Shown: positions 5,507-58,033 of the stretch, piece after piece
Layout of the letters: each line of letters starts with the position of its first letter
How positions within the stretch are numbered: position 1 is the first letter of the stretch
Assembly: GCA_019217005.1 (NCBI GenBank)
Contig: JAHBNG010000007.1
Coordinates: 159,150 to 223,149, forward strand
Source of the DNA: Chloroflexi bacterium TSY
GTDB taxonomy: Bacteria > Chloroflexota > Anaerolineae > Caldilineales > Caldilineaceae
DNA length: 64,000 nt
Direction: 5' to 3'
The notes under the pieces: generated by a model
The model's database searches: none
Told to the model about the DNA's origin: nothing
The model's input: the letters and a program-made list of their open reading frames with translations, nothing else
Made by a program: the position numbers and the translations under genes

Positions 5507-5617
5507 AAATAATCGCAATGCGTAAATAAAAAATTTCGCATCCGATTCAGTGGAAGGATGGGTATTATCCATCGAGTAATGTATAATAGTCCATTATGTC
5601 AAATCAATTCTCAGTCT

Positions 5618-5833
5618 CAGTAGATCCAAATTTCAGGTTTAGAGAGAGAATTTGGGCTAATTAGTTGACATAAATACGTATTTGCCAGTCAATACCTAGC
5701 ATTTACGTAAAATTTAAGCGATTTCTAGATATGAAATTGGCTGTTTTTGGCAACTGAGATCTGAAAAAATGGCCCCAAAATCCCTTACTCTCCCGACTGA
5801 AAATAGTCAAAAACGCCAAATTTGGATCTACTG
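5618..5833. mobile_element. 215-bp MITE-like element, copy A (216 bp)
   Basis: Ends are the inverted repeat CAGTAGATCCAAATTT and its complement. It is flanked by AGTCT on both sides (5613-5617 and 5834-5838). It belongs to the diverged subfamily also seen at 56722-56936 and has one extra base inside. It lies immediately after the kinase stop codon (5837-5839); the right duplication overlaps that stop without changing it. Confidence 0.9.
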
Positions 5834-5836
5834 AGT

Positions 5837-7987
5837 CTATAATTGAGAAACTGAGAGTAGGCTGATATAGAGAAATTGAAAGACGAGTAAACCGAGGACA
5901 ATATAAAGAGCGATCCAGCCTGATTGAAAAAGAAACCCGCGCAGATGCGATTTAGCTCGTCGCGGACTGATTCGTAAGTGAACCAAAGCATGCCAAAAGC
6001 GAATCTGCGCGACAAATCGCCGCTCACTACACATCCAAACGAGCAGTCCACCTGTAATCAGCGTATACAGGCCGATGCCAACGAACGCCCAGAAAATTTG
6101 ACTCGCCAAAAGCGCAGCACCTCCCGTCATATCACCCGTCAGGATGCCAGGCAACTGATTGTTTATACCAACTAACAAACAATACCCAATACTGATCCAG
6201 CCCCAAGCACAGACGAGTATCCAACCGTATCTCTGACGGGCTCGAACTAGACGCTGACGCAAGAGCAGCCACTGCAAGACTCCGACGATTGTGCCAAACG
6301 TCATGGCAACCAATCCAATGTCGATGCCCATCCATAGTTCACCAAGATGTTCGGTGATATCAAATCGCATCAAGAAGTGTGCAACAGTGGCAGCACCTCC
6401 TCCCGCCAAGCAGAAAGTTGCGACCCACAATAGACCATCACGGGAATGAATGAATACTCGATGACGAACGCCAAGCCATTGAGCCATGCCAAAGACAGCT
6501 GCTGGTGCTGCACCATTAAGCAAAATTAACCAACGATCAATGCTGGTAATTGCCTCGGAATTGGTCATTACTGAGGTGGCCGCTTGTTCGAACGGATTTG
6601 TGAAATAGCTGAGAATAAACAATACCACGATTGCACCACCTCCCCCCAGTAGATTTGCAATGAGCCAAGAGAGCCCAAGGCTTCCTTGCTGTGCGAGAAT
6701 CACCCGCCAGGTACGGACAGTCTCGCTCATTTGTGTAGGGATTACTGACAGTTTGCCGCCCGCTGTGCTCGCCGTAGATGCAAGGGTCGACAGCGCTACC
6801 TTTGAGTTGTGCTGTAAGATTTGCCAAAGATCGTTAGCGTCTATTTCTGTGATCTTGGTGCGCATTGCGTGGACTCGTTTGGAACGAACAATTTTTTGTA
6901 CTTGAATGGAAACAGGCACCCGTACATGTGGGATCGTTTCCGGTTTACAGAAAGGACAGTCCCGTAAGTGTGCACTATAGATATGCTCACGATCCGATTC
7001 GCAAGCAATGAGTGCTTCTTCGGCTCCTTTTAGCCCTTTACGCCACTCCGTTGCGCTGGGACGTCTTTGTGCATGATGATGACCCCGCACAAAGCATTGT
7101 ATAAAGAGTTCTTGCAGATTGGGAGCCAGTAGAGCCACTGAAGGTGCGCTGGGTGGCGGGGTAACTTCCAGATTGGGTCGATGTGGAAAGAGACCCTTTC
7201 GGACACAATGAAGGTCAACTCGTTCGGTTGAGTGGGGAGTTGTCAAGACACCAGCAAAGGGATGAACGCCTTCCATTAATAAGTAGAATAGCATAACCGC
7301 CAGACCAAAATAATCCTGTTCTGGGCCCCGATCGACAGACTTGAAATCGACTCCCTGCATTTCTGGTGCCGTAAATTCGGCTTTGCCAACGGTGCTTCGA
7401 TAGAATTGGAGATTGGATTGAGAAACCAATGTGCTCTGATTCTGGCTTTTCAAATTTGTTCCATTGGGTGATGTCCCGTTGGATATTCTCACTTGAAAAG
7501 AATCAGTATCGACCAGCGTGACAAGTGCTTGTGAATTGACCAACACATTTCCTTCGTTCAAGTCGCCAACGATGTGTCCTTGCGCGTGAACAGCCTCAAT
7601 CGCCGAGGCAAGATTGTAGGCAACCCGGTGAAGAAAGTAGCGCCAAGGAACGATCTGCGGAAGGCGTGTGCGTCTGACAGGATTGTAGTAGTGAAAGACA
7701 GAGCGACAGTCGTGGACCTTGGGCATCACGAAACCGGAGAAACATCCATCCCGATAGATTAAATCTGTGGGCCAAGCGATGGCTCGATGTGTCCGCGGTT
7801 GGGATGGTGGACACATCAGCATGGTCGTGAGCTTTGCCTCGCGCTCGTCAGAAGGCTGATGGTATAACTTTGCAATCAAGTGTGGCTCACGCCGAATTGA
7901 CCAGATTTCGGCTTCACCCCCTGCATTGATCTGTTCACCCAGCTCGAGCTGTTCACCGCTCTTGGTTGTTAGCTGCATGAGAGTCAT
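5837..7987 (-). CDS. Ser/Thr protein kinase with zinc-binding motif and multi-pass membrane domain (TerY-P triad)
   Basis: The amino-terminal half is a kinase: glycine loop INAGGEAEIW (residues ~20-29), lysine in LIAKLYH, catalytic loop VGDLNEGNVLVN, and DTDSF in place of DFG, so the catalytic residues are present. An H-Y...C-P-F-C motif follows the kinase domain, as in YegI-like kinases. The last ~270 residues hold six or seven hydrophobic segments, so the kinase is membrane-anchored. The ATG at 7987 was preferred because GAGGG lies eight bases upstream; an ATG at 8005 has no ribosome site. The gene overlaps the end of the PP2C gene by 35 bases. With the PP2C and vWA genes it forms the TerY-P triad described for Ter-type stress-response systems. 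Its substrate is unknown. Confidence 0.88.
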   Translation of the reverse strand: MTLMQLTTKSGEQLELGEQINAGGEAEIWSIRREPHLIAKLYHQPSDEREAKLTTMLMCPPSQPRTHRAIAWPTDLIYRDGCFSGFVMPKVHDCRSVFHYYNPVRRTRLPQIVPWRYFLHRVAYNLASAIEAVHAQGHIVGDLNEGNVLVNSQALVTLVDTDSFQVRISNGTSPNGTNLKSQNQSTLVSQSNLQFYRSTVGKAEFTAPEMQGVDFKSVDRGPEQDYFGLAVMLFYLLMEGVHPFAGVLTTPHSTERVDLHCVRKGLFPHRPNLEVTPPPSAPSVALLAPNLQELFIQCFVRGHHHAQRRPSATEWRKGLKGAEEALIACESDREHIYSAHLRDCPFCKPETIPHVRVPVSIQVQKIVRSKRVHAMRTKITEIDANDLWQILQHNSKVALSTLASTASTAGGKLSVIPTQMSETVRTWRVILAQQGSLGLSWLIANLLGGGGAIVVLFILSYFTNPFEQAATSVMTNSEAITSIDRWLILLNGAAPAAVFGMAQWLGVRHRVFIHSRDGLLWVATFCLAGGGAATVAHFLMRFDITEHLGELWMGIDIGLVAMTFGTIVGVLQWLLLRQRLVRARQRYGWILVCAWGWISIGYCLLVGINNQLPGILTGDMTGGAALLASQIFWAFVGIGLYTLITGGLLVWMCSERRFVAQIRFWHALVHLRISPRRAKSHLRGFLFQSGWIALYIVLGLLVFQFLYISLLSVSQL

Positions 7988-15926: not shown

Positions 15927-16110
15927 TTTTATATTTACCTGTGAGTCATAACATGGACATCCGAATCATACGCTATTATAACGCAAATATCGTATTCTCC
16001 CATTCCTGCTCCCAAACCAAAACGCACCCCCGTTTGGCGAGGATAGGCCAATCACGAACTTTGCCGCCCAGCGTTAGCGAAGCGCCGGTTAAGCGAAAAA
16101 ACACCAGACT
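15927..16110. other. Spacer upstream of Nif3 gene
   Basis: No gene. The promoter of the minus-strand Nif3 gene should lie here, but no clear motif stands out. Confidence 0.3.
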
Positions 16111-16325
16111 CAGTAGATCCAAATTTGGCGTTTTTGGCGATTTTCAGTCGAGATTGCAGGGATTTTGGAGTCATTTATTCAGATTTCGGTTACAGAAAAC
16201 AACCTATTTCATATCTGAAAATCGCCCAAATCTAACGCAAAAACTAGATATCGACCGGCAAATTTGTATTTATGTCAACTGTTTAGCCAGAATTCTCTCT
16301 CAAAACCTGAAATTTGGATCTACTG
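16111..16325. mobile_element. 215-bp MITE-like element, copy B
   Basis: 215 bp in reverse orientation to copies A, C, D and F, with CAGTAGATCCAAATTT ends. Flanks are AGACT (16106-16110) and AGTCT (16326-16330), one mismatch in the duplication. Intergenic insertion between Nif3 and the glycosyltransferase gene. Confidence 0.9.
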
Positions 16326-16384
16326 AGTCTAAAAAACAAGAACGGTTTTTTTGGAATCCGTGTGGTTGACAAAGGCCAGAAAGA

Positions 16385-25300: not shown

Positions 25301-25350
25301 TGATTGTAAAGACTCAGTCGATCCAACTTTTCATGGAGTAGACGTTCTCT

Positions 25351-27450
25351 ATTACACGCAGTAGGCCAAAAAAGGGGTAAAATAGCCCTAGGAGGCCAAA
25401 ATGAACCAAGAATTTAGCGCCGCAGTAACAGGATTCTGTGCCCATGTGAGAATGCTTTCTCCGCAAAGCGAAACTGTAAAACATTACGAAAGTGACCTAA
25501 ATCAATTTGGCCAGGTGATAGAAAAAAGGCCAAGAGAGATAGGTCGCCAAGAGATAACGACGTTTGTAACGGCGCAACTCGAAGCGGGGATGAGCAGTGC
25601 GACGGTCAATCGCAGAGTGGCAACGTTGAGCCGATTTTTCGACTACTTGGCGGATGAGGCAGAAGACGAAAGCTGGTCAAACCCGGTGGTGTGGCGTCTA
25701 CACCGACTGGATACAGGTTGCCATCTTCCCAGAGATATAGCGGAACGCATCGTCCGCCAGTTATGGGGGAGCGTGAGTCAAGGTCAGATAAGAGACCAAG
25801 TGATGTTGGCCTTGATGCTCGACGTTGGCCTGCGGGTGGGCGAAGTGTCGAAACAGAGATGGGCGATATTGAAGCTGCCATAAATCCGGACGAACTGTGG
25901 TCACTGCGCGTACGCGGCAAAGGGAACAAAGAGCGTCGAGTCTGGTTGACGCCAGAAACCACAGCGCTGTTGGTGAGCTATATGGATGAGCGTCCTGATG
26001 CAGTCGATAGCCATCTGTTTCTGACTCGTCGTCACAAAGGCATCAGTGTCCGCGGAATCCAGGAGCGCCTCGATTATTACCGTCAGCAAGCCGGACTCTC
26101 CGAGAACGAGGTCTCCTGTCATCGCCTGCGCCATACCTTCGCCAGACGAATGGCAGAGTCGCGTATGCCACTGCCTAGTCTCTCTCATTGGTTGGGCCAC
26201 AGTCAATTGAAAACGACCCAGATTTACATCGATGGTGCCAATCCTGATATGCGAGCCGACTATGAAGCTGCTATGGAGCAGTTGTCTCGCCAAGCCGCAT
26301 GCTCGGATATTGAAGGAACGACATCTGCAATAGAGACAGAGAATACTGTGCCTTCTGAACATCGCACAGTGGAGCCAGCTGTTGGCATCTGTTTGTCTGC
26401 TGATGAGATCCGTCAACGTCTCACCTCATTGCCGCTCTGGCTTCATCAACCCATCATCTCATTACTTCTCCACCAGCAATTACGCTGGAAAGCCCTCTAT
26501 CGGCGGGAACGAGCCCTTCAGTGGCGGCGAACTCCAACGCGGTTGGCAATGGATGCTCGACCAGCGCATGCTCTCCAGCTTATCCGAACTAAGACGGCGC
26601 GATCTCCAAGACTACATCACCCACCTATGTGACTTAGAGTATTCCGTCCATACCATCAATCATTTTATTTGTACCCTCAAGTGTTTTCTGCATTTTGCTG
26701 AAGAATGTGGCCAGTCGATCGCTCCGGCTTTATATCGCATTCAACGTCTCAAACGACCCACTACCTTACCTCGTCCGTTGCGCCAGCATGAATTTGCTCA
26801 ACTTGAACAGTTCGTCTTAAACTCAACGGCTCAGAGCCTTTCTCCTTCCGACCTCCTTGACCGTGCTTGGTTTCTTATTCTGGTTGATGCTGGGCTACGT
26901 ATGGGCGAAGTGCAAGCTCTGCTCGTTTCTGACTGGAATTCGGATACAGACTCTGCTCGTTCGAGATGCCAAATCCCATCGTGACCGTCGGTTGCCTGTT
27001 ACCCAACGCACTGCTCTTGCCATCGATGCCCATCTGCAACATCGCACCGATGACCTGGCTACTCATTCCCCGCTTTACTACGCGATGGCTTACCTCTTCG
27101 AGCCAATTATGTGCGCAACCATCTTCATGCCTTTGCCGCCCAACTTAGAGGGCGTCACTCCTCATCGCTTGCGCCATACCTTTGCCACCCGTTTGCTCAA
27201 CAGTGGCCTTATGCCCATCACTACCTTGCAGAAACTCATGGGGCACACTCATATCGATACCACCATGCTTTATGCACAGCTCTACGATGAAACCATTCAG
27301 CAGCATTATTTAGCCGCTATGGCTTCACATTCTGTTTACGCTATCCCTGAACCTGACCCCGCTATTTGGGGTCCCACTTTGGAGAATGCCTTTGAATCAA
27401 CTTTTCAATAGCAACCACTTTAACTTTTATGTCTACTGCGTGTAATCTCT
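25351..27450 (+). mobile_element. Tandem tyrosine-recombinase element, copy 1 (2100 bp, decayed)
   Basis: The unit runs from ATTACACGCAGTAG (25351-25364) to CTACTGCGTGTAAT (27433-27446), inverted repeats of 14 bp, with CTCT just outside the left end (25347-25350) and just after the right (27447-27450). It aligns with copy 2 (46316-48424) base for base except for five small indels that sum exactly to the 9-bp length difference. It carries one broken recombinase gene. Confidence 0.88.
25401..27411 (+). pseudogene. Double tyrosine recombinase, multiply frameshifted (copy 1)
   Basis: Compared with copy 2, this gene has lost single or paired bases near 25852 (T), 26524 (TT) and 26947 (CA), and five bases near 27149 (GCTAA); it also has a different indel at a C/T run near 27072. 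The start ATGAACCAAGAA follows AGGAGG with five bases between. Both recombinase domains can be read across the breaks, each keeping the HRLRHTF box and its arginine, lysine, LGH/MGH and tyrosine motifs. No full-length protein can be produced, so the copy is dead unless another copy supplies protein. Confidence 0.88.
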
Positions 27451-27585
27451 AATGCTACCTCCGCGATTATGTGACACATTTTGGATCGACTGAGACTGCG
27501 AGAAAGAGTATCGAGTCAAGATGTCGCCCTGCCAAAACTATGCTCCAGAAAGAAACGAGGCATGACCTGGAGCAGTTCACTATAA

Positions 27586-28597
27586 TCATATCTCGGGCTT
27601 CCAGGCAACCAGTAGGGTATCTTCGCTGGGCGACAACCCAATCTCCCTAGAGTTCTCAAAACCAGACTCAGTAGATCCAAATTTCAGGTTTTGAGAGAGA
27701 ATTCTGGCTAAACAGTTGACATAAATACAAATTTGCCGGTCGATATCTAGTTTTTGCGTTAGATTTGGGCGATTTTCAGATATGAAATAGGTTGTTTTCT
27801 GTAACCGAAATCTGAATAAATGACTCCAAAATCCCTGCAATCTCGACTGAAAATAGCCAAAAACGCCAAATTTGGATCTACTGAGACTCGGATAGATAAC
27901 TGATCATTTCACCCAGTGTCGAGAGATCGCCCGCATCGGTAGAGAGCAGCATGTGCAGCGAAGCAAGGGTTGATTCAGGCGGTCCAGTGCGCTCCTCGTC
28001 CAACCAAAAGCCGCGAATGGCAACTTGACCAGTCGGATTGAGCGCATTGTAACTCTTGTGCAACAGATCACGTTTGCCATCCGGCGTCTCGCTCACGAGC
28101 ACACCAAAAAGGAGCAGCAGATCATACCCTTTTCCCAAATCTTCTTTTTGGAAATCGCCTTCTTGTACAGCGACTCTTGCCGTCATCCCTCCTTGCTCAA
28201 TAATGCGTCTTGCAACTGCCGCGGCAGCCGGTAGCTCATAGACAGCCGCTTCGACATTCGGGTAGCGACGGGCCAATGCCATGCTGTAGCCGCCGTGACC
28301 CCCACCCACATCCAGCACCCGCAGAGGTCGATCTGTAGGCAAATTGAGCGCCTCCGCCACCAGCGGTCCGTTGACGCGTGCCGCATCGAAGAGCGCCATT
28401 TCAAAATCCCAAACCCAATTCAGACAACTCATGGCCAGCGGCCCATTCATGTAGACATCACCGTTTCTGTCCAGCAGGTCAAAAGCAACCGCAGCATTGA
28501 GCAGGCGCGCCAGTCCACGGCAATTCACCCCCAGCTTCTCCGCCAATGCCGCTGCCGTGAGTGGTTCATCAACCTCAAGACCAGCTTTTGTGAAATG
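27586..28597 (-). pseudogene. SAM-dependent O-methyltransferase remnant, split by MITE copy C
   Basis: The SAM-binding core is clear: LRVLDVGGGHGGYSMALA, then AAVYELPAA, then VQEGDFQ and a late 'LLLFGVLVSE' strand, the pattern of class I plant-type O-methyltransferases (family 2). The frame now ends in the MITE, which supplies a stop. Excising 215 bp plus one AGACT restores 'SYLSES' to 'GFENSREIGLSPSEDTLLVAWKPEI' and the natural end (792 bases from 28597). The amino-terminal dimerisation domain is missing: an in-frame stop lies just before residue 'HFTKAGLEV' near 28597, so the gene was truncated there as well, next to the copper promoter. Confidence 0.85.
27669..27883. mobile_element. 215-bp MITE-like element, copy C
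   Basis: 215 bp, CAGTAGATCCAAATTT ends, flanked by AGACT on both sides (27664-27668 and 27884-27888). It is inserted in the methyltransferase gene and provides its premature stop. Confidence 0.93.
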
Positions 28598-32264: not shown

Positions 32265-35200
32265 CTATTGAAATTGGCTCATTAATCTGTCAACAATTGG
32301 CTCTAACGACATACCGTTTCTATTGCTTAAGCAAACCTCAACCTCATCTTCTCCCAAAATCACTGCTAATTCATGCTTGAGCGATTGGAGGCGGGAATCA
32401 ATAATTTCAAATGACGTATTCTGATGATTCCATATAGCATAAAGTAATTCCGCACTCTGCTTTATATCACCGAGGGCCAGATACAGACGAGCATAACCCG
32501 CTATTGCTTCATTCAGGACGGCCTTTGTACCGGTTTCATGAGCTAACACTAGTGCCTCATGCAGGTAGGACTTGGCAGACTCAGTCTCGTTGGTTGCCAA
32601 TAGATTAAAAGCTAGATTTACCGAAGTTTCGGCTATCATCTGCCTAGCATTGATGCGACGCGAGATGTCTAAACTTTCATTAAACCGCTTGCGTGCAAGT
32701 CCATGTTCGCCTTGCAGGTCATTCATGAGTCCCCAATTATTGAGTGTAATTGCTGCGCCGCGTAGATGACCAGCCTGATTAATTATCTGCCAACTTTCGG
32801 CAAAGTAAGCGCTTGCTTCACGAAAATCGCCGCGCTGAAAAGATAACCAGGCCAACCCTCTTAGCGCGCGCGAAGTATCGGGCGGATGTCCTTTTTTGCG
32901 TGCCAGTTCGAGGCTTGCGGTATTGTATTCACTTGCTCTTTCGAAATTTCCTTGCTTGAGGTCGATCCAAGCCAACGCACCTAGAGAGCGCAGAGTTAGA
33001 TGTGGACTGATGTGCTGTGTATTCTGTAGTTCCTGAGAGAAATAATCTCTCGCCACATCAAATTCACTCTGATGAAGCGCAATAATACCAAGGTGGCCTA
33101 AGGCGCTTGATTCCATCGGGTCTCCTACCTCACGTGCAATTCGGAGTGCTCGCTGAAGATATGCTTTCGCTGAAGTATAGCGGCCGTAGTTGCGTTCAAT
33201 GGCACCAAGTTCAATCAGAATATATATTTCTTCATGATGTAGCTGGAACTGAGACGCCAACTCAAGCCCACAGGTGAACTTTTCTTGTGCAACTTCATAC
33301 TTTCCTAAACTAGCCATGCCGACGCCACAAACTCGCAATCCAACAACTTCACTTTGGTCATCCGACGCCATTTGTGCCAGTTCGATGACTGTTAGCGCAG
33401 TATCAACGGCTTGTTGATAGCGCCCAAGACGTGTCAAAAAATGCGCCCACTGTGCCAACAGTTGGGCATAGATTCTATGGATACGTCTATCTACTCTTTG
33501 TCCAGTATCAATTTCGGTTGGCGGAAAGGGGATAAGCATTTGTTTCCACCCTAATGCTCCCTCGCGATGTAAACCATTCAAATCGTAAAAGTGCATTAAT
33601 GTCCAACTACAGTTTTCGAGATTCACCGCATAGTCAAGATCAGCGGCGACCTGATTCACTGTCCACTCCCATGCTTGACGTATATTATCCAACTCTTCCC
33701 TCAGTTGAGGGAGCACTTGGGCAAAGTTTCGTTTAGTCAAATTGTCTTGATGCTCATTGAGTAGATGTAGATAATATTCTGCGTGGTGGCGACAACCGCA
33801 CTCATATTTCTCCACGTCCTTTAGCTGTCTAACAGCAAACTGACGTAGCAGTTCATGCATCCGATAGATGCCAGGCTTTGGTTGCGCTAACAATGACTTT
33901 CTGGTTAGCATTCCTAGATCAGCAACTTCTGCGCCCGTAACGACCATCGCCGCTTCTCGACTAAAATTACCACGGAAAATTGCTGCTAAAGCAAGTATTG
34001 TTTGTTCATATGACGATAGCCAAGTCCATGTATGGTCAAGTAGGGCCCTTATGCCTCTGTGTCGGTCAGGCAGATCAACGGCGTTACTTGACAGAAAGTT
34101 TACGTTTTCTCGTATGGAATCTAAAATTTCACGACAGCTAAAGTCATTTGTATAGCTGGCTGCGAGTAGTATGGGTAAGGGGGCACCCCCTACTAACCGA
34201 CATATTTGAACAATCGCCCTCATTTCGTCCTCATCTGGGGTAAAAGCTATGTTTTCATGGGTTGCTTGCTGAAGGAAAAGGCGGATGCTGTCAGAGCAAC
34301 GGGCCTCTGCAATATTTTCCGTTTCTGGAAGTGCAAGACCCAGTAGATCCAAATTTCAGGTTTTGAGAGAGAATTCTGGCTAAACAGTTGACATAAATAC
34401 AAATTTGCCAGTCGATATCTAGTTTTTGCGTTAGATTTGGGCGATTTTCAGATATGAAATAGGTTGTTTTCTGTAACCGAAATCTGAATAAATGACTCCA
34501 AAATCCCTGCAATCTCGACTGAAAATCGCCAAAAACGCCAAATTTGGATCTACTGAGACCATTAAGTTGAATCACCTGCCCTTGGAGCAATTTGAGTCGC
34601 TCGCGGCTGGTAATAAGGATTTTTATGGTTGGTGCGACCTGTAGAAGATTCAGCACCAGCGACGTAGCATCTAGTAAATGTTCAAAATTATCTAGGAGCA
34701 GCAGAATTCGTTTTGCCTTCAAATATGTAAGAACACGCTCTTCAGGGTCTGAGTCAGCATCCAAAGATAGGCCAAGTGTTTCAGAAATCACTATCACCAG
34801 GGCTGTGGCTGCACCCTCAGATTTTGGAACCACTTCCGCTAGGGAAACATACCAAATCCCGTCTATAAATGGTGAATCCTCGGCATCAACGATTCTTCTG
34901 GCCGCTGCCTGCGCAAGTTGTGTCTTGCCTATGCCACCCATACCGGTCAAGGTGAGTAGGCGAACGTGCGAGTAAAGTAACTGATCACAAATACTGCTTA
35001 GCTCTGCGTCTCGTCCGATTAATGATACCGAGCGGATAGGAACATTATTAGGTAGCGAACAAGTATTATTAATTGTTTGTTGCTGCGTTTGTACATGCTC
35101 GATAGGTAGAGGGCTTTGCCTCCGAAGGATATTTCCGCTCTCAAAGTGTCCAGCCTTAATTTGTGCATAAAGGCTATGCGTTTCTGCGTCTGGTGCAACA

Positions 35201-46315: not shown

Positions 46316-48424
46316 ATTACACGCAGTAGGCCAAAAAAGGGGTAAAATAGCCCTAGGAGGCCAAAATGAACCAAGAATTTAGCGCCGCAGTAACAGGATT
46401 CTGTGCCCATGTGAGAATGCTTTCTCCGCAAAGCGAAACTGTAAAACATTACGAAAGTGACCTAAATCAATTTGGCCAGGTGATAGAAAAAAGGCCAAGA
46501 GAGATAGGTCGCCAAGAGATAACGACGTTTGTAACGGCGCAACTCGAAGCGGGGATGAGCAGTGCGACGGTCAATCGCAGAGTGGCAACGTTGAGCCGAT
46601 TTTTCGACTACTTGGCGGATGAGGCAGAAGACGAAAGCTGGTCAAACCCGGTGGTGTGGCGTCTACACCGACTGGATACAGGTTGCCATCTTCCCAGAGA
46701 TATAGCGGAACGCATCGTCCGCCAGTTATGGGGGAGCGTGAGTCAAGGTCAGATAAGAGACCAAGTGATGTTGGCCTTGATGCTCGACGTTGGCCTGCGG
46801 GTGGGCGAAGTGTCGAAACTAGAGATGGGCGATATTGAAGCTGCCATAAATCCGGACGAACTGTGGTCACTGCGCGTACGCGGCAAAGGGAACAAAGAGC
46901 GTCGAGTCTGGTTGACGCCAGAAACCACAGCGCTGTTGGTGAGCTATATGGATGAGCGTCCTGATGCAGTCGATAGCCATCTGTTTCTGACTCGTCGTCA
47001 CAAAGGCATCAGTGTCCGCGGAATCCAGGAGCGCCTCGATTATTACCGTCAGCAAGCCGGACTCTCCGAGAACGAGGTCTCCTGTCATCGCCTGCGCCAT
47101 ACCTTCGCCAGACGAATGGCAGAGTCGCGTATGCCACTGCCTAGTCTCTCTCATTGGTTGGGTCACAGTCAATTGAAAACGACCCAGATTTACATCGATG
47201 GTGCCAATCCTGATATGCGAGCCGACTATGAAGCTGCTATGGAGCAGTTGTCTCGCCAAGCCGCATGCTCGGATATTGAAGGAACGACATCTGCAATAGA
47301 GACAGAGAATACTGTGCCTTCTGAACATCGCACAGTGGAGCCAGCTGTTGGCATCTGTTTGTCCGCTGATGAGATCCGTCAACGTCTCACCTCATTGCCG
47401 CTCTGGCTTCATCAACCCATCATCTCATTACTTCTCCACCAGCAATTACGCTGGAAAGCCCTCTATCGGCGGGAACGAGCCCTTCAGTGGCTTGGCGAAC
47501 TCCAACGCGGTTGGCAATGGATGCTCGACCAGCGCATGCTCTCCAGCTTATCCGAACTAAGACGGCGCGATCTCCAAGACTACATCACCCACCTATGTGA
47601 CTTAGAGTATTCCGTCCATACCATCAATCATTTTATTTGTACCCTCAAGTGTTTTCTGCATTTTGCTGAAGAATGTGGCCAGTCGATCGCTCCGGCTTTA
47701 TATCGCATTCAACGTCTCAAACGACCCACTACCTTACCTCGTCCGTTGCGCCAGCATGAATTTGCTCAACTTGAACAGTTCGTCTTAAACTCAACGGCTC
47801 AGAGCCTTTCTCCTTCCGACCTCCTTGACCGTGCTTGGTTTCTTATTCTGGTTGATGCTGGGCTACGTATGGGCGAAGTGCAAGCTCTGCTCGTTTCTGA
47901 CTGGAATTCGGATACACAGACTCTGCTCGTTCGAGATGCCAAATCCCATCGTGACCGTCGGTTGCCTGTTACCCAACGCACTGCTCTTGCCATCGATGCC
48001 CATCTGCAACATCGCACCGATGACCTGGCTACTCATTCCCCTTTTACTACGCGATGGCTTACCTCTTCGAGCCAATTATGTGCGCAACCATCTTCATGCC
48101 TTTGCCGCCCAAGCTAACTTAGAGGGCGTCACTCCTCATCGCTTGCGCCATACCTTTGCCACCCGTTTGCTCAACAGTGGCCTTATGCCCATCACTACCT
48201 TGCAGAAACTCATGGGGCACACTCATATCGATATCACCATGCTTTATGCACAGCTCTACGATGAAACCATTCAGCAGCATTATTTAGCCGCTATGGCTTC
48301 ACATTCTGTTTACGCTATCCCTGAACCTGACCCCGCTATTTGGGGTCCCACTTTGGAGAATGCCTTTGAATCAACTTTTCAACAGCAACCACTTTAACTT
48401 TTATGTCTACTGCGTGTAATCTCT
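46316..48424 (+). mobile_element. Tandem tyrosine-recombinase element, copy 2 (2109 bp)
   Basis: From ATTACACGCAGTAG (46316-46329) to CTACTGCGTGTAAT (48407-48420) plus CTCT (48421-48424); the same CTCT stands at 46312-46315. Left junction GCATT-CTCT-ATTACACG and right junction CGTGTAAT-CTCT-AATGC imply an element joint CGTGTAAT-CTCT-ATTACACG and an empty target GCATT-CTCT-AATGC. It lies between the NicO and DUF4331 genes. Confidence 0.9.
46366..48397 (+). pseudogene. Double tyrosine recombinase, one frameshift (copy 2)
   Basis: Restored length is 677 residues. The first recombinase domain (~1-305) has an amino SAM-like core-binding part, then GLRVGEV (Arg), GKGNKERRVWL (Lys), HRLRHTFARRM, LGHSQLKTTQIYID (His and Tyr). 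A linker follows (~305-385), then a second complete domain (~385-660) with GLRMGEV, DAKSHRDRRLPV, HRLRHTFATRL, MGHTHIDITMLYAQ. All usual R-K-HxxR-H-Y residues are present twice. The reading frame breaks at 48039-48045 in a C/T run; comparison with copy 1 suggests loss of two bases. The start follows CCTAGGAGG with five bases between. A single polypeptide with two full tyrosine-recombinase domains is not a standard architecture. Confidence 0.9.
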
Positions 48425-55610: not shown

Positions 55611-55615
55611 AGACT

Positions 55616-55830
55616 CAGTAGATCCAAATTTGGCGTTTTTGGCTATTTTCAGTCGAGATTGCAGGGATTTTGGAGTCATTTATTCAGATTTCGGTTACAG
55701 AAAACAACCTATTTCATATCTGAAAATCGCCCAAATCTAACGCAAAAACTAGATATCGACCGGCAAATTTGTATTTATGTCAACTGTTTAGCCAGAATTC
55801 TCTCTCAAAACCTGAAATTTGGATCTACTG
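55616..55830. mobile_element. 215-bp MITE-like element, copy E
   Basis: 215 bp, reverse orientation (as copy B), flanked by AGACT on both sides (55611-55615 and 55831-55835). It is inserted in the RNA part of group II intron 2, upstream of its maturase gene. Confidence 0.93.
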
Positions 55831-56009
55831 AGACTAGATACGTCCACTACGTACGGAATTCGGGAAGGCCTGTCGGGCGAGAGCCCTATGGTCTCGGAGC
55901 CATCGTAAGAGTCGTGCGAGTCACGCCGCACCAGGGAGACTCGGAAAGCGAGTCACAGGGCAAAGGATGGCAGGTTGGTCATATATTTATTGAATGGAGA
56001 GTTAGCCGG

Positions 56010-58033
56010 ATGGCCCACAATCAGAAGTTCATAAATATAGTTCACAAGTTAGGACGAAGTCGATACCCACTGACAGGTATCTATAGACGAATTCAGGATA
56101 AGGAGCTATTCCTGGTTGCGTATGGAAAACTCTACGCAAATGCAGGAGCCACAACACCTGGAACCGACCCTCAGGACACGGTGGATGGCATGTCCCTGGC
56201 TCGTATTGACACCATTATAGAGCAGCTACACAGCGGCACCTATCAATGGACTCCTGTCAGGCGAACCTACATTCCAAAAAGTAACGGAAAACGCGCACTC
56301 GGCCTACCTTCCTGGAACGACAAATTGCTCCAGGAGGTAATTCGCATGGTTCTCGAGACCTACTATGAGCCTCGGTTTTCTGACTACTCACATGGATTCC
56401 GTCCGAACCGGGGATGTCATACTGCGCTAATGCAAATCCGCCAAAACTGGCGGGGAACCAAATGGTTCATCGAGGGCGATATCAGGGGGTGTTTTGACAA
56501 CATTGATCACGATGTACTGCTAGACATCCTGGCACGTGATATCAAGGATAATCGATTTCTCAAATTGATCCGACAAATGTTGAAAGCAGGATATATGGAG
56601 GACTGGCGCTACCACAAGACCTATTCAGGCGCTCCGCAAGGAGGTGTGGCCAGCCCGGTACTCACAAACATACTCCTCCACGAACTCGATACGTTCGTGG
56701 AAGCGAAACTGTTCCCAGACTCAGTAGATCCAAATTTCAGGTTTAGAGAGAGAATTTGGGCTAATTAGTTGACATAAATACGTATTTGCCAGTCAATACC
56801 TAGCATTTACGTAAAATTTAAGCGATTTCTAGATATGAAATTGGCTGTTTTTGGCAACTGAGATCTGAAAAAATGGCCCCAAAATCCCTTCTCTCCCGAC
56901 TGAAAATAGTCAAAAACGCCAAATTTGGATCTACTGAGACTACAACAGAGGAAAAGTAAAGACAGTCAATCCAGAATATAAACGTATCAACGAAAGCGTT
57001 TGCCGTGCCCGTAAACGAGGCAATCCTGCAAGAGTCAAAGAACTGGCCCAAAAACGGCGTCAGTTTCCGAGCAAGCTCACGCATGACCCGAACTTTCGTC
57101 AATTACGATTTTCTAGATACGCGGATGACTTTATTCTCGGATTGGACGGACCTCGTCATGAAGCCGTGCAAATCAAAGAAGAAATCACGGCATTTCTGTC
57201 TACCATCGGCCTGGAACTATCTGAGGAAAAGACCCTCATCACGCATGCGATGACACAAACAGCCAGATATCTTGGGTATGATATTCGCATTGCCAAAGAT
57301 GATAACCAACTTACCAATGGTCAACGATGTCTCAATATGTCCCCTGTACTGCGCGTCCCTACAGAAATAGCAAGCCATTGGCGGCGCAAGTATACGAAGA
57401 AAGGGAAACCCTTCCACCGTGCAGCGTTAATTCATTGCTCAGACTTTGAAATAGTGCGTACCTATGGAGTGGAATTCCAGGGGGTTGTGAACTACTATAG
57501 TCTGGCTTACAACGTATCCAAGGCTTTCTATCCAGTCAAACTATCCAGTCAAAAATGCCTTTATCCAATCGGCAGCGATGACCTTAGCCGCTAAACATAA
57601 GAAGCGGGTGAAATGGGTACTCGCAAGGTATTGCCGCAAATCGGCACATGGTCTGAAAGCCTTAATCGTTGAAGTCGATAACCCCAATCATCCTGACAAA
57701 CCCTATCGAGCCATGTTAGGTGGTTTACCGATTCGTGCTAATCACAACGTCAAAATAACGGATCGCATCCCACAGTTCGGTCAGCGAGGCAATGAACTAA
57801 TCCAACGGCTGCTTGCCAATGCATGTGAGTTGTGTAGCTCACCCGATAGGGTAAGCGTCCATCACATCAGAAAGCTAGCTGATATCAAGAAGAAGTACCG
57901 AGGCTGGAAAGACCCTCCCCCTTGGGTTAGATTCATGATGGAGCGCAACCGCAAAACTGTGGTTGTGTGTCATCGTTGTCACAACGATATTCATGCGGGA
58001 CGCTATGATGGTCAAAAGGTGAGTCAAGACTAA
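56010..58033 (+). pseudogene. Group II intron reverse transcriptase/maturase 2, split by MITE copy F and a 13-bp duplication
   Basis: Removing 220 bases (element plus one AGACT) joins 'AKLFPD' to 'YNRGKVKTVNPEYKRI' exactly. Deleting one copy of CTATCCAGTCAAA (duplicated at 57528-57553) repairs the second break: 596 residues. RT motifs: 'YIPKSNGKRALGLPSWNDKL', 'HGFRPNRGCHTALMQ', 'GDIRGCFDNIDH', 'GAPQGGVASPVLTN', then FSRYADDFILG after the MITE. Domain X and an HNH nuclease (CELCSSPDRVSVHHIRKLAD, VCHRCHNDIHAGRYD) end it. It differs clearly from the RT of intron 1. With two independent breaks it is dead. Confidence 0.93.
56722..56936. mobile_element. 215-bp MITE-like element, copy F
   Basis: 215 bp of the diverged subfamily (with copy A), flanked by AGACT on both sides (56717-56721 and 56937-56941). 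It is inserted in the maturase gene of intron 2; excision restores the frame exactly. Confidence 0.95.

Follow-up and report, generated by a model that had tools for sequence, protein, structure and literature searches.

Can two tyrosine recombinases (YRs) joined in a single polypeptide be all that a transposon needs to move? The question is raised by a 2.1-kb unit in the genome of Chloroflexi bacterium TSY (TSY presumably denotes the source, the sponge Theonella swinhoei), within a stretch of 64,000 nucleotides that was analysed as a whole and is called the window here. The first-pass annotation of this DNA described the unit as a minimal mobile element, in which one gene encodes two complete YR domains between 14-bp inverted ends, and proposed a self-contained new type. 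Our analysis points to a one-gene transposon of insertion-sequence size, the movement of which is probably driven by two covalently linked Xer-like tyrosine recombinases and passes through a circle with a 6-bp spacer.

That the unit behaves as an insertion is supported by two near-identical copies at separate places. Besides the copy described at first, copy A, the window contains a second one, copy B, which the first-pass annotation had missed (Table 1). The copies are 21 kb apart and 99.1% identical over an alignment of 2132 columns, with 5 substitutions and 5 indel events between them. Copy B has the same ends and the same flanking TCTCTA as copy A, and the aligned similarity ends close to the 6-bp repeats, within about 12 bp on the left and 4 bp on the right. 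The terminal repeats of copy A are perfect over 13 bp, and the following base is mismatched. The annotated inverted ends therefore exist, at 13 bp instead of 14 bp, as the outer A/T pair is part of the direct repeat TCTCTA; the predicted circular joint retains the same letters and is better parsed as CGTGTAA-TCTCTA-TTACACG. When ATTACACGCAGTAG was searched with up to 2 mismatches, the 64 kb yielded four occurrences, all of which are the four element ends. Terminal inverted repeats and recurrence at separate sites, which together characterize an insertion sequence in the broad sense, are thus both present, and the short unit with a transposition gene alone is seen in copies A and B (one broken gene) as well as in the relatives L001, L132 and L133.

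Table 1. Positions in the window of the two element copies, their ends, cores and targets, and the reading frames of copy A.
Feature	Start	End	Strand	Remarks
Element copy A	46317	48419	+	2103 bp; ends located, second copy aligned
Left terminal inverted repeat, copy A	46317	46329	+	13 bp, TTACACGCAGTAG
Right terminal inverted repeat, copy A	48407	48419	-	13 bp
6-bp core TCTCTA, left of copy A	46311	46316	.	
6-bp core TCTCTA, right of copy A	48420	48425	.	
Target palindrome left arm, copy A	46300	46310	.	GGAGGAGGCAT
Target palindrome right arm, copy A	48426	48436	.	ATGCCGGATTG
Unoccupied inverted target-like sequence	48451	48464	-	GCATTCTCTAATGC on the - strand
ORF of 583 aa	46366	48117	+	YR domain 1 and first part of domain 2
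ORF of 190 aa	47825	48397	+	remainder of YR domain 2 (HxxR, H, Y), other frame
Element copy B	25352	27445	+	2094 bp, several breaks
6-bp core TCTCTA, left of copy B	25346	25351	.	
6-bp core TCTCTA, right of copy B	27446	27451	.	
Outer arm of the palindrome holding copy B	25311	25326	+	
Outer arm of the palindrome holding copy B	27481	27496	-	

The gene of copy A starts 50 bp inward from the left end, and a -10-like TAAAAT (46343-46348) and an AGGAGG (46355-46360) were located by eye between the two. Both YR motif sets are in the sequence as annotated, but copy A does not contain them as one open gene: the frame is broken within domain 2, with the R and K region in the 583-aa ORF and the HxxR, H and Y elsewhere. 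The reading frame of copy B is interrupted at several points. Because both frames are broken, neither window copy has two complete domains in one open frame, and the window copies probably no longer make active protein themselves. A programmed frameshift in copy A was considered and rejected, since the relatives have one continuous frame and copy B is broken elsewhere too. The ORF list shows no second gene within the copy A unit, which agrees with the first reading of the 2.1 kb. The closest protein match, annotated as 'site-specific integrase' in Chloroflexi bacterium TSY, has 590 aa and 97% identity over 84% of the query; its cluster comprises 40 member sequences, suggesting that it comes from the genome of the window, or from a close one, in which copies are numerous.

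The relatives revealed that one protein with two complete YR modules, forming a minimal element, is real. Two homologue searches were evaluated through the best 120 of 594 matches (E up to 1e-20) and the best 120 of 804 (E up to 1e-60). The search for more two-domain proteins, as proposed in the first-pass annotation, was productive: 224 of the 240 listed homologues have 600-760 aa (114/120 and 110/120), and the other 16 have 381-590 aa. Catalytic residues were counted by alignment in these 224 listed proteins. The R-K-H-R-H-Y set of domain 1 is complete in 222 of them; domain 2 retains R, K, R, H and Y in 222, but 60 proteins have another residue in place of the first H of HxxR, so that all six residues are found in 162. 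The Phage_integrase fold (PF00589), which together with this residue set identifies a tyrosine recombinase, is present in 19/19 alignment members. An assembly or annotation artefact as the cause of the fusion was rejected, given the 224 separate clusters. In the first search, 14 of the 120 clusters have a longest contig above 5 kb, and many contigs span 2.0-2.9 kb, as would be seen with an assembly-breaking repeat but equally with ordinary metagenome contigs. Among the listed matches, the source names include Chloroflexi, Anaerolineales, Deltaproteobacterium, a Planctomycetaceae MAG and a cyanobacterial MAG, and the annotations are confined to 'site-specific integrase', 'XerC', 'XerD', 'tyrosine-type recombinase' and 'hypothetical protein'. 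With such generic names, these elements are easily overlooked.

Both halves of the protein resemble Xer recombinases. The AlphaFold2 model, based on a 19-row alignment, displays two CB+CAT-like modules (mean pLDDT 77.8, pTM 0.53) joined by a linker at about 301-333 that is predicted with low confidence. The best Foldseek matches are XerA, an integron integrase, an archaeal Xer, XerH on difH, lambda Int and the Tn1549 integrase with circular-intermediate DNA, and the matches of a PDB sequence search are Xer proteins. The profile search by domain that had been suggested at the outset likewise gave XerA-, XerC- and XerD-like halves in NCBIfam, with Xer profiles scoring best; no Tn554 or recombinase-in-trio (RIT) model appears in the NCBIfam match lists for either domain.

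We traced the descent of the two halves in a quick tree of 62 rows, made without bootstrap and without the recombinases of Tn554, RIT, Tn916 or the strand-biased circularizing integrative elements (SE). In this tree, the first domains of 18 fused proteins form one clade (SH-aLRT 97), and domain 2 forms another (SH-aLRT 99), which includes gene B of a two-gene pair, on a long branch. Gene A of the pair is the sister of the domain 1 clade (SH-aLRT 95). Since domains 1 and 2 form two separate clades, the tree suggests one old fusion of two already distinct recombinases. The two-gene form consists of adjacent single-domain genes in L144 (1193-3512; genome G684), and it recurs in L145 (G002) with the second gene cut short; no inverted ends of at least 9 bp were found around the pair. 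At E up to 1e-50, gene A has 1048 single-domain relatives, and the 120 of them that were listed measure 272-327 aa. The state before the fusion may be represented by this single-domain sister family, which occurs as two neighbouring genes in one genome. The first-pass annotation had stated that intact relatives made of two genes would speak against it. The close relatives are fused and the separate pair is their sister, so that the objection fails for the former, while a distant two-gene relative does exist. A profile scan of genome contigs yielded at least 80 loci, mostly single-domain Xer-like genes. Other arrangements were also encountered: L042 (2989-6922, an Anaerolineales MAG) carries a run of four Xer-like recombinase genes, two per strand, and L002 (1438-3373, a Syntrophaceae MAG) carries two separate overlapping Xer-like genes.

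Both ends could be read at nine insertion sites: A, B, L001, L132, L133, L137, L138, L139 and G457, the last assembled from two contig ends. The subfamily ends resemble TTACACGCAGT or TTACANTGAGTTG. The stop codon lies within the right inverted repeat in nine of the ten relatives with a readable right end, L138 being the exception, and a C-terminal [CSYF][VM], matching the right repeat, is found in 150 of the 224 listed proteins. The 6-mers beside both ends are identical at six sites (A, B, L001, L132, L138 and G457); the core length of 6 comes from this direct repeat and was assumed for the other three, where 5/6 (L139), 4/6 (L133) and 4/6 (L137) positions agree. The core of L139 is uncertain because the site lies within a short direct repeat. 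The unequal cores at the three sites would fit 6-bp sequences carried over from elsewhere, as in SE, Tn554 or Tn916-type elements.

How new is such an element? No description of a two-domain YR element was found in the literature searched, from which most subscription papers and ISfinder lay outside the scope. The 'self-contained new type' of the first reading nevertheless goes beyond the evidence, as Tn554, SE, RIT or Tn916-type elements already provide examples of Xer-type modules, inverted ends, a 6-bp spacer and co-operating YR pairs. Each half of the fused protein resembles one Xer protein (XerC/XerD, XerA or XerH) in its profile and structure matches. Those are separate proteins serving chromosome dimer resolution, whereas the pair of the fused element is joined and resides in a mobile unit. 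The dif site is near-symmetric, serves two related recombinases and has a 6-bp centre. Tn916/Tn1549-type elements are alike in having a YR, a 6-bp circle spacer and sometimes unequal flanking cores, which among our nine sites occur at L133, L137 and L139 only. The Tn916 type has a single integrase, extended at its N terminus by a part of its own, and carries an excisionase gene among many others. The integrase and excisionase set of such a conjugative element is not seen in the copy A unit, which holds no further gene.

The multi-gene transposons were compared within the classification of YRs set out in PMC8138268. Tn554 shares the need for two YRs, the target choice, the inverted ends and perhaps the 6-bp footprint, according to PMC10214605 and PMC3414803. 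It differs in carrying cargo and in encoding tnpA, tnpB and usually tnpC separately, whereas the fused element is a single gene and nothing else, with a single fused frame in 224/240 listed relatives. SE also employ two YRs and a 6-bp spacer at the circle joint, and their imperfect inverted repeats of 13-19 bp are comparable to the 13-bp ends of the fused element (PMC10214605). On the other hand, SE have four conserved genes (intA, CDS2, intB and CDS4) in addition to cargo, and this four-gene set was not found in copy A, L001, L132 or L133. RIT elements are alike in consisting of YR genes alone with terminal inverted repeats. However, they use three separate recombinases and 34-bp repeats (PMC10214605), while the fused element has one pair, 13-bp repeats, and one gene with two domains in place of three adjacent genes. 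The fused element would work like Tn554, SE or Tn916-type elements, yet falls within none of their tested definitions, which concern gene make-up.

It is therefore worth asking whether a known YR transposon group (Tn554, SE or RIT) has simply had two of its genes joined and moves by copy-out with one strand-exchange pair active. The apparent 6-bp footprint, the inverted ends and the two YRs have counterparts in SE and Tn554 (PMC10214605), and the unequal cores in L133 and L137 fit 6-bp copying from the donor. We regard this explanation as unlikely, since the unit contains no third gene and no CDS2/Tfp or TnpC/Srap-like gene (copy A, L001, L132 and L133), and the NCBIfam lists, led by Xer profiles, hold no Tn554 or RIT model. 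Moreover, Tn554 TnpA is long through an N-terminal extension and not through a second YR, as described in PMC3414803.

The target sites are palindromes centred exactly on the 6-bp core, and the element seems to insert there. In the rejoined empty sites, 30 of the 36 inner arm pairs (four positions per side) are complementary about the core centre, while 16 shifted axes (0.5 to 4 bp either way) gave 5-14 complementary pairs. When the right arms were dealt among the sites, the mean was 14.0, and 30 was reached in 0/20000 deals. With eight arm positions, the observed 46/72 pairs were reached once in 20000 deals, and for a five-site subset the dealing control reached the observed value in 157/20000. 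The unbroken arm pairing per site is 10, 7, 6, 5, 4, 4, 1, 0 and 0, with L139 and G457 showing none beside the core. The test omitted L134, L135, L146 and a broken copy in L004. L135 and L146 provide one end each, and the right flank of L134 is masked beyond CGTC, agreeing so far with its left core CGTCTC. At the copy A site, a long hairpin pairs the occupied site with the unoccupied inverted sequence listed in Table 1.

The surroundings of copy B deserve a separate description. Its site is an imperfect 86-bp palindrome (25311-25351 and 27452-27496), the outer arms of which match the ends of an unrelated 223-bp repeat, while the middle differs. The window contains six 223-bp units (5614-5837, 16107-16329, 27665-27887, 34337-34559, 55612-55834 and 56718-56940) with inverted ends GACTCAGTNGATCCAA, for which 14 end matches were counted in 64 kb against 0.18 expected. 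These repeats of about 223 bp look like a MITE family.

A palindromic target could also be read as a folded single-strand hairpin, in the way that attC is read by integron integrases, and not as double-stranded palindromic half-sites. Seven of the nine empty sites were folded as ssDNA: four fold far beyond shuffles (z -6.65, -5.96, -5.05 and -4.77), and the core is in or near the loop at several sites, but the other three are weak (z -2.19, -1.59 and +0.37). An integron integrase structure is among the best Foldseek matches, which also agrees with this possibility. However, any palindrome folds, so that symmetric half-sites would account for the hairpins with no need to invoke single strands. 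The window targets, furthermore, share core-adjacent letters, suggesting ordinary sequence recognition. Recognition of a folded single strand thus appears quite improbable to us.

Fused matches in genomes, defined by E up to 1e-100 with the two best candidates per genome scored in the 400- and 396-genome samples, are scattered. They were obtained in 3 of 400 genomes from the phylum of G001 and in 9 of 396 from its class, with G755 represented by the second half only and G457 cut by a contig end. The two samples overlap, and all genome searches together gave 10 different genomes with a fused match. Smaller genome sets were positive in 1/20, 1/41, 3/25, 1/10, 1/158, 1/3 and 1/1 cases, all among the known genomes. 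No fused match was found in 395 genomes from another phylum, that of G005, in a search run without a positive control. The nine genomes fully searched with the family profile contain one clear element each, so that a high copy number is not general. That the fused proteins are chromosomal Xer-like resolvases or host genes, with incidental ends and repeats, is scarcely credible: both domains are XerC/XerD/XerA-like and most genomes searched have one copy, but the window has two near-identical copies with the same ends 21 kb apart, the presence is scattered (3/400 and 9/396 genomes in overlapping samples), and the relatives have conserved ends and matching 6-bp cores.

A phage or plasmid origin was also rejected, given the lack of plasmid matches and the separate genes of the viral two-domain loci. 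No plasmid match was found for the DNA, nor for protein P0002 at an E limit of 1e-30, and three single-protein scans found no relatives in viral sequences. P0112 matched six phage records at 40% coverage apiece. A profile scan of viral contigs gave 41 loci, among which L081 and L099 alone span both domains, as separate genes. In the viral contig L099 (4899-7954), a 367-aa recombinase gene precedes a frame of 814 aa, which encodes a single recombinase domain together with a long N-terminal part; this arrangement is Tn554-like.

How the fused pair might move its unit can be outlined from these features. Each domain would bind one half-site, and two fused molecules would thereby make up the usual four-domain YR synapse. 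The left end (target arm, core and inverted repeat) would recombine with the right end (inverted repeat, core and target arm) across the 6-bp core. A circle would be released with a symmetric joint of inverted repeat, core and inverted repeat, and the excision would rejoin the palindromic empty site; in the reverse reaction, the circle would enter a new palindrome. The analysis revealed neither a circle nor an excision event nor a natural empty site. More speculatively, the domains may divide the task, with the element end held by domain 1 and the target arm by domain 2, in which case the fusion would tie donor to target. Domain 1 is more conserved than domain 2 (mean identity 0.505 versus 0.436; larger in 2727/3000 sampled pairs), the pattern to be predicted for a domain 1 that reads conserved ends and a domain 2 that reads varying targets. 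The greater conservation of domain 1, taken with the conserved ends and varying targets, makes this division of labour likely, though short of proof.

A further-reaching proposal, which we put forward tentatively and consider possible although somewhat doubtful, is a new insertion-sequence family in which the fused heterodimer is the whole machine. Its halves would sit on the end and on the palindrome arm, two molecules would bridge the circle and the target and place the element at the palindrome centre, and the 6-bp cores would be lineage-specific. If true, the family would offer a natural single-chain recombinase pair, with palindromes or hairpins setting the target choice.

To conclude, if the one-gene transposon with its fused Xer-like pair is correctly described here, YR-driven movement would require one gene and about 2.1 kb, and the element would close the gap that separates simple insertion sequences from YR transposons with several genes. 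The fusion would fix the ratio and the pairing of the two recombinases, and the question of which partner acts on which half-site would therefore be directly testable by single-domain mutants. The conserved target rule, a palindrome with a 6-bp centre, would moreover allow new sites to be predicted simply.
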